Assembly: GCA_017547685.1 (NCBI GenBank)
Contig: JAFYPD010000084.1
Span: 1 to 64,000, forward strand
Direction of reading: 5' to 3'
DNA length: 64,000 bases
From: Peptococcaceae bacterium
Lineage (GTDB): Bacteria > Bacillota > Peptococcia > Peptococcales > Peptococcaceae
Both the position numbers and the translations under genes were made by a program. The first letter of the stretch is position 1. The number at the start of each line of letters is the position of its first letter. Of the stretch, positions 6,047 to 61,375 are shown one piece after another. The notes beneath the pieces were generated by a model. That model was given only the letters and a program-made list of their open reading frames with translations. It was not told the DNA's origin and made no database searches.

Positions 6047-7156
6047 TTATCCTCTTAACGGCAGCAGCAGATACAGATAGCTTTCATCGTTCAGCGGACG
6101 GAAGATGGCCGGACTCAGCGGACCGCCCATTTTAATATCTAAATCATCAAAGTCCATGGTTTTGAAGGCATCCAGCAGATATTTTGCATTAAACAGAATC
6201 GATAAATCGCTGCCTTCTGTATAAATGTTGATATTTTCATTCACCATACCGTATTCCGACTTGGACACAATATTCAGATTGCTGTCCGAAATATTAAAAC
6301 GCAGTACACTGGAACCATCCCGCTCCGGCACAAACAGGCTGGCGCGTTCGATGGATTCCTGCAGCTGTTTCTTTTTCACTTTCAGCAGGATGTTATGTTC
6401 GTCCGGAATTACCTGACGATAGTTTGGAAAGTTTCCTTCCACCAGACGGGAAACCAGACGGACATCGTTACATTCAAAGCTTACCTGGCGTCCATTGCTG
6501 CGAATGGTCAGAACATCCTCCGCATCCTCTTTCAGGATACGGCTGATTTCATTCAGTGATTTTACTGGAACAATCACTTTGAAGTTTTCACTGGTCAGAT
6601 TGTCAATTTTACATGTTTTCACAGCCAGACGATGGCTGTCGGTACCGACCATGGTTAAATTATTACCTTCTGTTTCCAGCAGCGCACCGGTAAAAATCGG
6701 ACGCGGGTCATTCATATTGGCACAGAACCCGGTCTGTTTTACCAGCGATTTGAACACAACCGGATTTACCGTAATTATATGGCCTTCATCCAGCGCTGTA
6801 ATGCCAGGGAATTCTTCTCCTCTCCAGCATTTGATATTGGTTTCTGCCTGGTCATATTCAATTTTTATGGATACCGCTTCATCATCGTAGGTAAAAATCA
6901 GATTGGTATTAGGCAGACGGCGCACAATTTCAGCAAAAAAATGGGCTGGAATCACAGCATGTCCTTCTTCAATTACCTGAACCGGCTGGCTGCATGTGAT
7001 ACCGATTTCCAGGTCAGTTGCAGCAAAAATTAATTTGTTTCCTTCTGTTTTCAAATAAATACCGGTTAATACAGGTACAGCACCTTTGCTGGAGATTGCT
7101 TTCTGCACAGTATTGATACCGGTTAACAGATTTTCTTTTGTTGATGTAAATTTCAT
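6047..7156 (-). CDS. dnaN: DNA polymerase III beta subunit (sliding clamp)
   Basis: 369 aa, standard length for the ring-shaped processivity clamp that tethers polymerase III, MutS and other partners to DNA. The N-terminus MKFTSTKENLLTGI, the central FTGALLE and GTDSHRLA motifs and the C-terminal LPLRG typical of beta clamps are visible. The nearest ribosome site, GGAG, is unusually far (about 12 bases) from the ATG. The gene is separated from dnaA by a terminator and a 335-bp region with DnaA-box-like sites, so it is probably transcribed independently. Confidence 0.97.
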   Translation of the reverse strand: MKFTSTKENLLTGINTVQKAISSKGAVPVLTGIYLKTEGNKLIFAATDLEIGITCSQPVQVIEEGHAVIPAHFFAEIVRRLPNTNLIFTYDDEAVSIKIEYDQAETNIKCWRGEEFPGITALDEGHIITVNPVVFKSLVKQTGFCANMNDPRPIFTGALLETEGNNLTMVGTDSHRLAVKTCKIDNLTSENFKVIVPVKSLNEISRILKEDAEDVLTIRSNGRQVSFECNDVRLVSRLVEGNFPNYRQVIPDEHNILLKVKKKQLQESIERASLFVPERDGSSVLRFNISDSNLNIVSKSEYGMVNENINIYTEGSDLSILFNAKYLLDAFKTMDFDDLDIKMGGPLSPAIFRPLNDESYLYLLLPLRG

Positions 7157-7251: not shown

Positions 7252-7384
7252 GTATCCACAACGGCTCACCCCTGTAGATAACTTTGTTGATAATGAGTCT
7301 GGATTATCAACAGAATCCACAGATTTTTTCAACAATTTTAATTGTCCACACATTACTAACAGTTTATCAAAAAAAATATCCACA
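7252..7384. other. DnaA-box cluster between dnaA and dnaN (second half of a bipartite origin)
   Basis: Six nonamers each one mismatch from TTATCCACA: 7252-7260 (GTATCCACA), 7273-7281 (complement TTATCTACA), 7285-7293 (complement TTATCAACA), 7304-7312 (TTATCAACA), 7342-7350 (TTGTCCACA) and 7376-7384 (ATATCCACA). The surrounding DNA is AT-rich. In Bacillus subtilis the origin is bipartite, with boxes on both sides of dnaA; the same layout is inferred here. This fills most of the 335-bp gap between the two genes. Confidence 0.65.
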
Positions 7385-7451
7385 TTCAATGTTTTGTTGC
7401 GGTTTCTTAAAAATTGGCTGATACCTGTGCTGGAACACAACGCTGAACGAT

Positions 7452-7482
7452 AAAAAATCCCGCAGGATTGCTCTACGGGATT
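7452..7482 (-). terminator. dnaA terminator
   Basis: On the minus strand AATCCCG and CGGGATT pair across a 17-nt loop and run into TTTTTT. It lies 10 bp after the dnaA stop codon and separates dnaA from dnaN transcription. Confidence 0.8.
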
Positions 7483-7491
7483 GCTTGTCCA

Positions 7492-8931
7492 TTAACGACT
7501 GGTTAAAGATTGTTTGATTTTGCTGATGGTCATTTGCAGGGTCTGGTCCACACGCAGCTCTTCTGTGATTTTTTCATAGGCATGCATGACTGTGGTATGG
7601 TCACGGCCGCCAAACAGTTCACCGATTTTCGGAAGGGATAAATCGGTCATTTCACGGCAGAGATACATGGCAATCTGCCGCGGAAATGCAATATTTTTGG
7701 TACGTTTTTTTGCTTTAAAATCTTCCACACGCATCTGATAGTATTCGGCCACTTTTTCCTGAATCAGTTCACCGGTGACGATAACTGGTTCATTTGGGGT
7801 AATCAGATTCTGCAGACATTCTTTTGTCAGATCCAGGTCAATTTTCCGGTTGCTTAAACTGGAGTAGGCGGACAGTCTGGTCAGCATCCCTTCCAGCTCA
7901 CGAATGTTGGAATGGATATTTTCTGCGATATAGTCAAATACCTCGTCCGGGATGTCCAGCATTTCAGCCTGCGCTTTTTTGCGCAGGATAGCGATTCTGG
8001 TTTCTAAATCAGGCGGCTGAATATCGGTTAAAAGGCCCTGGTTAAAGCGGGAACGCAGACGTTCTTCCAGTTTTGGAATTTCATTTGGCGGACGGTCACT
8101 GGAGATGATAATCTGTTTTTCCGCTTCCCTTAATGCATTAAAAGTATGGAAAAATTCTTCCTGGGTGGATTCTTTATCGGCAATGAACTGGATATCGTCG
8201 ATCAGTAATACATCAACAGTGCGGTATTTATCACGGAATTCTTTTCGTTTGTTTCTTAAGATAGCATCAATAATTTCATTGGTAAATGTTTCTGAAGAGA
8301 GATAAGTAATTCTTGTGTTTGGTCTACGCATCAGAATATGATTGCCAATGGCGTGCATCAGATGGGTTTTTCCAAGTCCGGAGCCGCCGTGAATAAATAA
8401 CGGGTTGTAAACTCTGGTTTCGGCATTGTTGGCAATATTATCAGCTACACCCATGCAGGCAGCGTGTGTCAGACGGTTGCTTCCGCCTACTACAAAGGTA
8501 TCGAATGTGTATTTTGGATTTAAACCGGTATCTTTTGTGAACAGACGCGGCTCCTGTTCAAAGGTTGATATCGGTTCTGGTGTTGTGACAGGCATTTCAT
8601 ACTCCACCGGATTGATGGTTTTTTCTGTATAACCCTGCTGCTGCATCAGCTGTTCAATGGCCTGGTCTTTTTCCTGCGGCGTGACAAATTGCAGTTTTAC
8701 AGTATGATTCAGCATGGATTCCAGATGATTTTTAATGATATGCGTGAAATTATTTTTCAAAAAGTTTTTTGCATAGTCATTCTGTACTTTAATGATAATA
8801 TTTTCACCGTAATAGGCAGCCAGTTCGGTTGCACGGAACCAGAGATCAAAGGTTGGCTTATTGACGTCATTTTCTAAAAGCTTCAACGCGTCATTCCAGA
8901 TCATGGCGTTCATATTATTCGCGTCGTTCAT
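7492..8931 (-). CDS. dnaA: Chromosomal replication initiator DnaA
   Basis: 479 aa AAA+ ATPase that binds DnaA boxes and opens oriC. Domain I (about 1-85) carries the [12 protein letters not shown] segment. A variable linker follows. The AAA+ domain (about 135-350) has Walker [10 protein letters not shown], Walker [10 protein letters not shown] and the arginine-finger region RLRSRF. The C-terminal DNA-binding domain carries the DnaA signature [11 protein letters not shown]. The ATG has GGGGGA about 6 bases upstream. It is transcribed away from oriC; boxes in its upstream region suggest the usual autoregulation. Confidence 0.98.
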
Positions 8932-8984
8932 ATAAATTCCCCCAGAAAAAAATAGCTGTATCGGCAGTGCATTTTTGTGATGTA

Positions 8985-9235
8985 ATGTTATTATGATTGC
9001 GTTTACAAGTGCTTCTGTATGTAAAAATAAAAAATTTGAAAATTATTATATTTATCCACAAAAACTGTTGATAAGTACTTTATTTATCCACAATAATAAA
9101 TAGAATGCTTTAAAATAATAGCAGAATCAGTGAAAATTATCAACAAATTTTTCGAAATACGATAAAATTTTATCCACAAGTGTATAACTTTAAGTATTTC
9201 TTATAAAAATACCGTAAAAAAATTGAGTCAGGGAC
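8985..9235. other. oriC: Chromosomal replication origin oriC
   Basis: The AT-rich space between divergent dnaA and rpmH holds perfect DnaA boxes TTATCCACA at 9052-9060, 9084-9092 and 9170-9178, and one-mismatch boxes TTATCAACA at 9066-9074 (complement) and 9137-9145. Together with the six weaker boxes downstream of dnaA and the change of gene orientation on the two sides, this identifies the origin. The exact unwinding element was not resolved. Confidence 0.9.
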
Positions 9236-30008: not shown

Positions 30009-30299
30009 ATGAGCGATTACAAATTAAAAACACCAGCAGGTATGGACAAACTGATTGACACGTATGAAAAAATCCGTGACGGTGTTGTAGGTACGTATGA
30101 AAAAATTGAGGATACTGTGGTTGACACTTATCAGAAAATTGAGGATAAGTTTGTGGATACTTTCCTGGAAAAAGTGGATAACTCCGCTGAAACTGTGGAA
30201 AATAATACAGATGTATCCCCAGAAACAGTAGAAACTGTAGTTTCTGAAGCGAATCAGGCCAGTGAAACAGCGGAATCTGTGGATAAGACAGCCGAATAA
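30009..30299 (+). CDS. Small acidic protein with amphipathic YEKI-D-VV repeats
   Basis: 96 aa. Residues 15-52 contain four tandem copies of an 11-residue unit (DTYEKIRDGVV, GTYEKIEDTVV, DTYQKIEDKFV, DTFLEKVDNSA), expected to form a long amphipathic helix of apolipoprotein/LEA type. The rest is Glu/Val/Thr/Ser-rich and probably disordered. AAAGGAG precedes the ATG. I have the impression that similar small proteins are common in anaerobic Bacillota, but know of no function. Membrane-surface association is inference. Confidence 0.75.
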   Translation: MSDYKLKTPAGMDKLIDTYEKIRDGVVGTYEKIEDTVVDTYQKIEDKFVDTFLEKVDNSAETVENNTDVSPETVETVVSEANQASETAESVDKTAE

Positions 30300-30339
30300 T
30301 CCACAATAAGGGGATAATTCAATCAAAATTTGTGTATAA

Positions 30340-56500: not shown

Positions 56501-57898
56501 TTACGATTTGCGCAGTTCTTCTCTGCTTCGGAAAAATTTTAATGCGATAGGAACAATACAAAGCAACATTATGCAGGAAACCAGCACAATCATATTTACT
56601 GTAGAAGTATAAACCAGTGCGATGGCATCCGAGGTAGTAGCTCCCATGGATTTAATACGCAGGTCCACAATATTACTGGCCACGCCAACCATCAGTGCGT
56701 TCAGCATCTGATGGAACCAGTTGGTAAGGGACGATGCATGTCCGGATAATTCCGGCGGAATGGCAGACATTTGTGCATTGGTTGCCACCAGATTGAACAT
56801 CCCCATACCGCATGCGCGAACACATAGCGCCGCAATCAGCAGTAAAATGGAAGTAGACGGATTCACAAACAGGAATGGAATGGAACCAAATATAATAATA
56901 GAAATAGCGGCAGCGGTCAGCAGTTTTTCACCGGTTTTGTTGTACAGTGAACTTGCAACCGGCATCATTGCCATAGAAAGAATGGAACATGGAAGCATAA
57001 CAAACCCTGTCATCAGCGGAGAAATGCCAAGCCCGTTCTGCAGCAGAAGCGGCATCAGGAAAGCAACCGTGCAGAGGGCAATAATATTCATGCCGCTGAT
57101 GACAAATGCTGCAACATAGCGAGGGTATTGGAATACTCCAAGATTCAGAACCACATCGGAACGATGACGGCTGCGGATGTAATAGGTAATCAGACAGCCC
57201 ATCCCAAGAATAATTCCGACCAGCAGTTTTACCGATAAGCCCCATTTGGAAAGATTACTGAAGGTAAACAGCAGGGTGAAGCTTCCGATCGAGGTTAAAA
57301 ACAGGCCGGTAAAGTCCAGTTTTGCCTGGCTCTGCTGCGAATCTTTCGGCAGTACAAAAATACATAATATACCGGCCAGCAGTGCAAATGGAATATTGAA
57401 TAACAGCAGGAAGCGCCAGTCTGCTACACTTAAAATCAGCCCGGAAAGAACCGTTGGCAGAATGGCACCCAGCATGGTTGCCATGCCCCAGATACTGGCC
57501 GCTTTGGTCTGCTGGCTGGCCGGGAGAATCCGATAAAACATGGCCAGAGCCAGAGGCGATAATAAACCGCCGGTAAAACCAAACAGCAGACGGATAACAA
57601 TCAGCATTTCAATGCACCAGGAGAATGCACCGATAATGGAAATAGTGAGAACACAAAACAGAATCGCCGTAAAAAGCCGTTTGTATCCAATGCGATCCCC
57701 CAGAAAGCCTGCCGCTGGTATAATCACCCCTGCTGCCAGCATATAGCCGGAAGTCAGCCACTGTACTGTGGATAAAGGCACATCAAAATAAGTAACCATC
57801 GTCGGCAATGCTACATTAAACATCATAGAATTCAGAGAGCCAATCAGCGTGCCGAGCCCCAGTGTCAGTAAAATCAGATTTGTATGTTGTTTTTCCAA
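56501..57898 (-). CDS. MFS multidrug exporter, DHA2 (EmrB/QacA) type
   Basis: 465 aa with about 14 membrane helices. LDxTIVNVALP-type motif appears as LNSMMFNVALPTMVTYFDV, then WLTSGYMLAAGVIIPAAGFLGDRIGYKRLF (motif A) and the C motif region around residue 150 (GMATMLGAILPTVLSG). Proton-driven drug or metabolite efflux is likely. The start is TTG at 57898 (AAAAGGAG 8 bases upstream); the GTG three codons earlier overlaps that site. Confidence 0.88.
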   Translation of the reverse strand: MEKQHTNLILLTLGLGTLIGSLNSMMFNVALPTMVTYFDVPLSTVQWLTSGYMLAAGVIIPAAGFLGDRIGYKRLFTAILFCVLTISIIGAFSWCIEMLIVIRLLFGFTGGLLSPLALAMFYRILPASQQTKAASIWGMATMLGAILPTVLSGLILSVADWRFLLLFNIPFALLAGILCIFVLPKDSQQSQAKLDFTGLFLTSIGSFTLLFTFSNLSKWGLSVKLLVGIILGMGCLITYYIRSRHRSDVVLNLGVFQYPRYVAAFVISGMNIIALCTVAFLMPLLLQNGLGISPLMTGFVMLPCSILSMAMMPVASSLYNKTGEKLLTAAAISIIIFGSIPFLFVNPSTSILLLIAALCVRACGMGMFNLVATNAQMSAIPPELSGHASSLTNWFHQMLNALMVGVASNIVDLRIKSMGATTSDAIALVYTSTVNMIVLVSCIMLLCIVPIALKFFRSREELRKS

Positions 57899-57915
57899 AG
57901 TAGCCACTCCTTTTT

Positions 57916-57938
57916 TACCTGCTATTATACCTGCTATT
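57916..57938. promoter_or_regulatory. Tandem 11-bp repeat at the MFS gene promoter
   Basis: TACCTGCTATT at 57916-57926 and 57928-57938, 12 bp apart (about one helical turn), covering a TATAAT on the minus strand (57929-57924). Candidate binding site for a regulator of the exporter. Confidence 0.45.
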
Positions 57939-58081
57939 AAATGAACTGTTTCTTATATATATAGTATCATTTTTGAAGAAAAAAACTGTAACAGAAAAAA
58001 GTTCAGAAAATTTTGTATGGATACAAAAAATATATGTATATCAGAAAGCTGATGCCAGGATTCCTGTGCAGAAAACAAAAA

Positions 58082-58112
58082 CGACGATATTTTTTCAGAA
58101 AAAATATCATCG
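58082..58112. repeat. AT-rich perfect hairpin
   Basis: GATATTTTTT-CAG-AAAAAATATC inside the 635-bp gap between the MFS and sigma-factor genes. No supported gene lies in this gap. Confidence 0.5.
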
Positions 58113-58280
58113 CCTATGGCTGCCTGTTACACAGACTGCAGATAATAAAATAGATAAAAGTAATGATACCCAATTTATACCTGCTGCGCAACTGAATCAG
58201 GCTCATTTTATGCGTTTGTAACCAAATCAAGATAAAGCAATTCAGTACGACACAATGAAATAGATTTGTACTTATGCAAA

Positions 58281-58313
58281 TTATCCACTGCTTGTGGATA
58301 ATTTTGTGGATAA
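58281..58313. other. DnaA-box cluster outside oriC
   Basis: TTATCCACT (58281-58289, one mismatch) and two perfect boxes on the other strand (58293-58301 and 58305-58313), spaced 12 bp. About 49 kb from oriC and 220 bp before a sigma-factor gene. Could titrate DnaA or let DnaA regulate the sigma gene. Confidence 0.65.
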
Positions 58314-58533
58314 CCTATGGATATTCGTCAAAATTTGTGCATTACTGTGAAAAAAGAGTGGACAACAAGGTTCGAGTTGTGTGTTAATCTGTTTGGCAAA
58401 CAGTATGACGCAATTTATAATGGATGAAAGTTCTATCGTTTTGATTTTATTTTTGATTTTCCCGAGTGATTTTAAAAACAAATGCGAATGGAATAAATGG
58501 AAGGCAAATGTTCAGAATGGAGGGGTGTATGCG

Positions 58534-59088
58534 ATGAAAGAAGATGAGCTGTACATACTGCAATTACTGTTGCAGTATCCGGAAGACGGATTGCGTGCTG
58601 CGATTGACCGGTATGGCAAAACGGTACACTGGATTGTACGGAACATTCTGGGCCGTGATGCGGAAGTGGAAGAGTGTGTGTCCGAGATATTTGTGCGATT
58701 GTGGCAAAGTGCGGCGCGCTTTGATGAGAATCGCGGCGTATCGCTGGCCTCGTGGCTGTACGGGATTGCCCGCCATACGGCACTGGATTACAGAAGAAAA
58801 ACACAGCATCAGGCAAATCATCTGCCGATAGAAGAACTGGATTTGCAGCTGGATTTGAATCTTGACGATATGCTGGCACGAGAACAGAATGCAAGCGTGC
58901 TGCGGCATGTTGTGGATGGGCTCCCTCCGCCTGACCGGGAGATTTTTGTGTATCGGTATTTTTTAGAACTGTCGACGAAAGAGATAGCCGCGCGTTTAAA
59001 TTTATCTGTGAAACAGGTGGAGAATAAGCTGTACCGCGGGCGTCAGAAATTGCGGCGGCAGCTGATAGAGAAAGGAGTGGTTCGATGA
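58534..59088 (+). CDS. ECF-type RNA polymerase sigma factor
   Basis: 184 aa. Region 2 contains AEVEECVSEIFVRLWQSAARFDENRGVSLASWLYGIARHTALDYRR (sigma-70 family), region 4 LPPPDREIFVYRYFLELSTKEIAARLNLSVKQVENKLYRGRQKL. Length and two-region layout match ECF factors such as SigV-like ones. The ATG at 58534 is used because GGAGGGG is about 10 bases upstream. Overlaps the next gene by 4 bp. Confidence 0.9.
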   Translation: MKEDELYILQLLLQYPEDGLRAAIDRYGKTVHWIVRNILGRDAEVEECVSEIFVRLWQSAARFDENRGVSLASWLYGIARHTALDYRRKTQHQANHLPIEELDLQLDLNLDDMLAREQNASVLRHVVDGLPPPDREIFVYRYFLELSTKEIAARLNLSVKQVENKLYRGRQKLRRQLIEKGVVR

Positions 59089-60877: not shown

Positions 60878-61375
60878 ATGGCTTGTACATGTGGCGGACA
60901 CAATGAAGCATTATTTGCACAGCTTGACAATGTGATTGAGCAGCATAAAGACCAAAGAGGCAGCTTAATCAGCGTACTGCATAAAGCACAGGGGATTTTC
61001 GGCTACTTGCCGGAAGAAGTCCAGGCTTACATTGCAGAAAAAATGGATATACCTTTGAGTGAAATTTATGGTGTAGTGACATTCTATGCGTTATTTACAA
61101 TGAACAAAAAAGGAAAATACACATTTAATGTCTGTCTGGGGACAGCATGTTATGTAAAAGGCTCTGGCAAGCTGTTAGAAAAACTGCAGGAAGAACTGGG
61201 CATCGGCGTTGGGGAAACCACCGAAGATGGTTTGTTCAGCATTGAATGCTGCCGCTGCGTAGGTGCTTGCGGCCTGGCTCCGGTTATTACAATCAATGAT
61301 AAAGTTCACGGTCATTTAGTACCAGAAGATATTCCAGCTCTGATTGCTGAAATCAAAGCTGCTGAACAGATCTAA
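60878..61375 (+). CDS. NADH-linked hydrogenase subunit, NuoE-like (HydC/HndA type)
   Basis: 165 aa thioredoxin-like [2Fe-2S] protein. Ligands lie in CLGTACYVKG and ECCRCVGACGLAP. QGIFGYLPEEVQAYIAEKMDIPLSEIYGVVTFYALF is the NuoE family signature. Transfers electrons with the NuoF-like subunit to the hydrogenase. GGGAGG precedes the ATG. First gene of the operon. Confidence 0.93.
   Translation: MACTCGGHNEALFAQLDNVIEQHKDQRGSLISVLHKAQGIFGYLPEEVQAYIAEKMDIPLSEIYGVVTFYALFTMNKKGKYTFNVCLGTACYVKGSGKLLEKLQEELGIGVGETTEDGLFSIECCRCVGACGLAPVITINDKVHGHLVPEDIPALIAEIKAAEQI

Follow-up and report, generated by a model that had tools for sequence, protein, structure and literature searches.

A conserved facing triple of predicted DnaA boxes near the replication origin in a genus of the Peptococcaceae

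We analyzed a stretch of 64,000 nucleotides (the window) from a Peptococcaceae bacterium (assembly GCA_017547685.1, contig JAFYPD010000084.1), in which three predicted DnaA boxes lie within 33 bp of intergenic DNA. This triple is present with the same layout in every genome of the genus that we searched, and it keeps its place while the genes around it change. We consider it probable that the triple is a DnaA-binding site outside oriC, held at a fixed place some 40–50 kb from the origin, that acts on the availability of DnaA. The boxes, their conservation, their constant place, and their changing neighbors are the observations on which this interpretation as an element of replication control is built.

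Layout and conservation of the triple

The initial annotation of this DNA described two perfect boxes and one single-mismatch box within 33 bp, and both the coordinates (Table 1) and our chance tests agree with that description. It did not mention that box I faces boxes II and III. The start-to-start steps within the triple (58281–58313) are 12 and 12 bp. Allowing up to one mismatch, we counted 48 boxes in the window, where shuffles predict 17.18, and a run of three boxes inside 33 bp occurs once in the real window and in none of 200 first-order Markov windows. Across the genome, the consensus word of boxes II and III is found at 36 sites, and its reversed control word at 6. The triple is a group of close consensus boxes outside oriC, at a density above chance, which is the pattern looked for in an ectopic cluster. 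The gap that contains it (57,908–58,533) was called featureless in the initial annotation, which is roughly right, although the gap also holds a terminator-like hairpin (58079–58115, minus strand) and, between the triple and a downstream sigma factor gene, a promoter-like site that matches at 11 of 12 positions (58393–58421, plus strand). The number of promoter-like sites in the gap, three, equals the shuffle level (mean 2.9), and neither Rfam nor tRNA scans found a match in the window.

The spaced triple, with up to one mismatch allowed, occurs in exactly one copy in each of the eight genomes of the genus, and the reversed control occurs in none. The initial annotation had named loss of the boxes in close relatives as a refuting outcome, and no such loss was seen. 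The steps are 12 and 12 bp in all eight genomes. The first eight bases of box I are invariant, and its last base is T in six genomes, C in one, and G in one; box II has a single base change, common to two genomes (G007 and G001); and box III is invariant. In an ungapped alignment of the eight genomes, pairwise identity is 98% in the box columns and 48% in the spacer columns. Identity in the flanks is 27–30% over the 100 bases before the triple, 54% over the 20 bases after box III, and 33–35% farther on, and the raised value just past box III fits a putative weak fourth box there. The conservation expected of a site kept by selection among relatives was thus found within the genus (8/8) and not beyond it.

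Place near the origin and changing neighbors

Pfam matches identify dnaA (7495–8931, minus strand) and dnaN (6050–7156, minus strand) in the window, and we place the origin at dnaA because it is there, at about 7–9 kb, that a negative GC skew gives way to a positive one. We rejected the possibility that the triple, at 58 kb, is itself oriC or a misplaced origin, because the turn in skew lies beside dnaA. The triple and the start of dnaA are 49,350 bp apart, which matches the 49 kb given in the initial annotation. This distance could be measured in two genomes of the genus, the second being G005, in which dnaA is on the triple's contig, 39,093 bp away and on the same side as in the window. Two of the eight genus genomes searched have no strong dnaA match. 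The assembly of G006 contains two dnaA genes (contigs C38 and C122; loci L122 and L126), which are 88% and 68% identical to that of the window, and it is perhaps a mixture of two species.

The constant landmark beside the triple is a downstream gene for a nuoE-type 2Fe-2S protein. It is on the triple's contig, in constant relative orientation, in six of the eight genomes, with the triple 0.43, 0.48, 1.2, 2.5, 2.6, and 4.1 kb upstream of it. The contigs of the other two (G003 and G006) stop short of nuoE, within about 0.55 kb of the triple on that side; wherever the contig allows it, in six genomes of six, the triple is therefore beside nuoE. We rejected an operator of nuoE as an explanation, because its distance from the triple ranges between 0.43 and 4.1 kb and up to four genes intervene. 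We also scanned the surroundings of nuoE (0.7–12 kb) in five genomes from other genera of the family and found no triple; the only box cluster near nuoE in these genomes is in G012, where it is the origin beside dnaA. In that genome (contig C4, locus L191), about 7 kb separates nuoE from dnaA, so a second genus also has the landmark near its origin.

The remaining neighbors differ. In the present genome, the two flanking genes are divergent: that for an extracytoplasmic function (ECF)-type sigma factor starts 220 bp from the triple, and that for a transporter of the major facilitator superfamily (MFS) starts 374 bp from it on the other side. In G004, a membrane-protein gene (Pfam ABC2_membrane_3; presumably YhgE-like) ends 16 bp before the triple, a rhodanese gene follows on the opposite strand, and beyond it come genes for a sigma factor (860 bp from the triple), a DUF4179 protein, CrcB, and nuoE. 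In G002, a gene similar to the membrane-protein gene of G004 ends about 20 bp before the triple, and a convergent rhodanese-like gene lies after it. The triple of these two genomes is thus between convergent 3′ ends, 16–20 bp past a stop codon, where the promoter of neither neighbor is located. G005 and G006 share the order of a gene that we take to be DegV-like, the triple, and a rhodanese-like gene, and beyond the DegV-like gene of G005 lies a gene related to the MFS gene of the window (79% identity). In G007 and G001, the triple is 0.43–0.48 kb before nuoE, and the G003 triple follows the end of an oxidoreductase-like gene by about 30 bp. The differences among genomes indicate that the triple persists while flanking genes come and go.

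A probable role in replication control and its alternatives

Judging from the known behavior of DnaA and from the clusters of B. subtilis, adjacent DnaA molecules would be bound strongly at boxes II and III, probably with cooperativity, and the molecule at box I would face them. As the triple is near the origin, it would be copied early, soon after initiation, and the doubled triple would then draw DnaA off the two new origins. Such a loss of DnaA from the origins could help to prevent early reinitiation, with the triple contributing alongside other such clusters. On this reading, the triple resembles E. coli datA, a box site outside oriC that lowers initiation.

Okumura and colleagues reportedly described DnaA-box clusters outside oriC in B. 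subtilis in 2012. Several such clusters are also treated in three papers (PMC5295017, PMC13220808, and PMC4447404). Like the triple, the B. subtilis clusters consist of grouped consensus boxes that lie between genes and at a distance from oriC, there are several of them per genome, and one (gcp/ydiF) lies between convergent 3′ ends. The triple, whose binding by DnaA and effect on initiation are predicted, differs in having fewer boxes, a fixed facing 12/12 layout, and different surrounding genes.

The function proposed in the initial annotation, that of a box cluster outside oriC, is supported by the conservation in all eight genomes of the genus, but several observations weigh against it. The triple was not found in any of five genomes of the family's other genera, even with two mismatches allowed, and this restriction to one genus is a point against the proposed role; several of the relatives are incomplete assemblies (68–99% complete). 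In addition, the triple has only three good boxes, whereas the strong clusters of B. subtilis are described as having 7–11 sites (trmE, with 4, excepted). The triple's share as a sink may therefore be small, and single clusters in B. subtilis are described as having a weak effect in PMC5295017.

The alternative that survives best, although we regard it as rather unlikely, is that the triple works in the manner of a DnaA-reactivating sequence (DARS), in which case the facing pair of boxes I and II would join two ADP-DnaA molecules head to head, ADP would be lost, and fresh ATP-DnaA would be made, promoting initiation. In the gaps of E. coli K-12 that we take to hold these elements, we found a core of TTATCCACT (plus), TTATCCACA (minus), and TAATACACA (minus) for DARS1 (bioD-uvrB region) and a core of TTATTCACC (plus), CTATCCACA (minus), and TTCTTCACA (minus) for DARS2 (region before mutH), both with steps of 14 and 12 bp. 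Like the triple, both cores have a single box opposed to a tandem pair and a II–III step of 12 bp; box I of DARS1 is identical to box I of the triple, and the elements are alike in being intergenic and conserved in place. PMC5742627 gives the DARS core as three boxes with box I opposite boxes II and III, which agrees with our reading of the E. coli sequences. Furthermore, the triple has the single closely spaced facing pair in this genome, as judged by an exact pattern that misses weaker pairs (for example, 9052/9066 at oriC). However, the three-box core with an opposed box I is found here without the 14/12 spacing, and we do not file the triple as a DARS because its first step is 12 rather than 14 bp. 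It also differs from DARS1 and DARS2 in being a single copy and in lying near oriC, whereas the two E. coli elements are far from it (PMC5742627).

The order of the boxes is, moreover, not peculiar to DARS. In nine genomes of other families (loci L111–L119), we found a facing triple made up of TTATCCACA, TGTGGATAA, and a TGTGnATAA-type box directly upstream of dnaA, and facing 12/12 triples at this position are a frequent arrangement among origins of the class. These triples have the same facing-then-tandem order and the same 12/12 steps as that of the genus, but they are at the origin beside dnaA and not 49 kb away. Box I ends in A in all nine and in none of the eight genomes of the genus, which is also compatible with free variation at that base. 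Boxes 2–5 of the T. maritima oriC have a related facing-then-tandem order and are likewise located at the origin, and the inverted pair there works with ATP-DnaA bound head to tail, as described in PMC10316083. As the order is found at dnaA in nine genomes and a related one in the T. maritima oriC, order alone does not predict reactivation.

A looser search of the phylum (398 genomes, evenly drawn) for a near-full box opposed to two full ones with gaps of 1–20 bp gave matches at 22 places in 19 genomes, and only the two places that belong to this genus have 12/12 steps. We examined the other 20 loci: dnaA is within about 1.5 kb in eight of them and not in 12 (two of which overlap, in one genome). 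Facing triples away from dnaA therefore occur elsewhere in the phylum, but they are rare. In PMC13220808, the phylum's model species is described as lacking DARS, and an active balance of ADP-DnaA and ATP-DnaA is not established there. A paper on the C. difficile oriC (PMC7561715) raises DARS- or datA-like regulation as a possibility and deals with oriC boxes only. That the genus has a DARS-like site near its origin, in which the facing pair and the tandem box would strip ADP from DnaA, seems doubtful to us.

Also improbable is that the triple is an operator, at which predicted DnaA binding would regulate the sigma-DUF4179 operon or the divergent MFS gene. The divergent setting in this genome, the 11-of-12 promoter-like site, and the role of DnaA as a known transcription factor in B. 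subtilis are in favor of this possibility. However, relatives of the sigma factor at 59–64% identity are present in only two of the seven other triple-bearing genomes; in G004 the rhodanese gene separates the sigma gene from the triple, and in G003 the sigma relative is on another contig. In the other five relatives, the best match has at most 33% identity, which leaves five of the eight triples without a close sigma relative and three, including that of the window, with one. The triple has neither the co-occurrence with the sigma gene nor the constant position close upstream of it that a sigma promoter element should have. Together with the convergent setting in G004 and G002, this counts against direct control of the sigma operon, which the initial annotation had put forward as its alternative. 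In this one species, the triple may have a secondary effect on the sigma and MFS genes.

Least probable, and in our view very unlikely, is that the triple is a relic or displaced part of the box group flanking dnaA, either without a function of its own or as the mark of a secondary origin: the 12/12 facing triples beside dnaA in nine other genomes and the closeness of nuoE to dnaA in G012 are consistent with such a history, but a functionless relic would not keep 98% box identity beside diverged flanks, the GC skew turns at dnaA and not at 58 kb, the genus retains its own boxes at dnaA, and descent from the origin group could not be traced because the triple is missing throughout five other genomes of the family.

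Other box clusters and the use of the triple as a test site

The initial annotation proposed a count of such clusters across the genome, and we found five places with close pairs of boxes, the triple and four others. Pairs of perfect boxes on one strand and at most 3 bp apart occur in all eight genomes of the genus (26 places; none for the reversed control). The present genome has at least four further ectopic clusters, on contigs C24, C28, C48, and C70 (Table 1), and the genes that flank three of them recur beside such pairs in relatives (three relatives for C28, four for C48, and three for C70). The seven-box layout of C24 is also found in G003 (L149), with a weak match in the flanking sequence. 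Seven near-consensus boxes were also noted at 30140–30339 of the window; those at 30140–30202 belong to a short reading frame of repetitive sequence, in which the codons resemble boxes, and those at 30278–30339 are at or after the end of the frame.

Table 1. Predicted DnaA boxes, box clusters, and neighboring features (window positions unless a locus is given)
Feature	Position	Strand	Description
DnaA box I (predicted)	58281–58289	+	TTATCCACT, one mismatch; faces boxes II and III
DnaA box II (predicted)	58293–58301	-	TTATCCACA, perfect match
DnaA box III (predicted)	58305–58313	-	TTATCCACA, perfect match
Possible weak fourth box	58316–58324	-	TATGGATAT as read on +; within 20 bases after box III
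Origin region	7252–9178		Box clusters on both sides of dnaA; reference
nuoE-type 2Fe-2S gene	60878–61375	+	Pfam 2Fe-2S_thioredx; conserved landmark downstream of the triple
ECF-type sigma factor gene	58534–59088	+	Pfam Sigma70_r2, Sigma70_r4_2; neighbor only
MFS transporter gene	56501–57907	-	Pfam MFS_1; neighbor only
Cluster C24	L053:5796–5932	one strand	Seven boxes (at most one mismatch) in a stretch of about 140 bp; M18 aminopeptidase gene adjacent
Cluster C28	L001:1501–1555		Two abutting TTATCCACA
Cluster C48	L054:5570–5663		Two abutting TTATCCACA
Cluster C70	L056:5091–5187		Two abutting TTATCCACA

Our searches of open-licence papers found none on ectopic clusters of DnaA boxes in this clostridial lineage, which is a weak negative. 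The triple is a small, sharply bounded noncoding site whose conservation is hard to explain without the predicted binding of DnaA. Because its layout, steps, and place persist while the genes around it change, it would allow a clean test of the idea that initiation timing in this branch of the Bacillota is set by sites outside oriC, and the same test would distinguish the soaking up of DnaA from a change in its nucleotide state.
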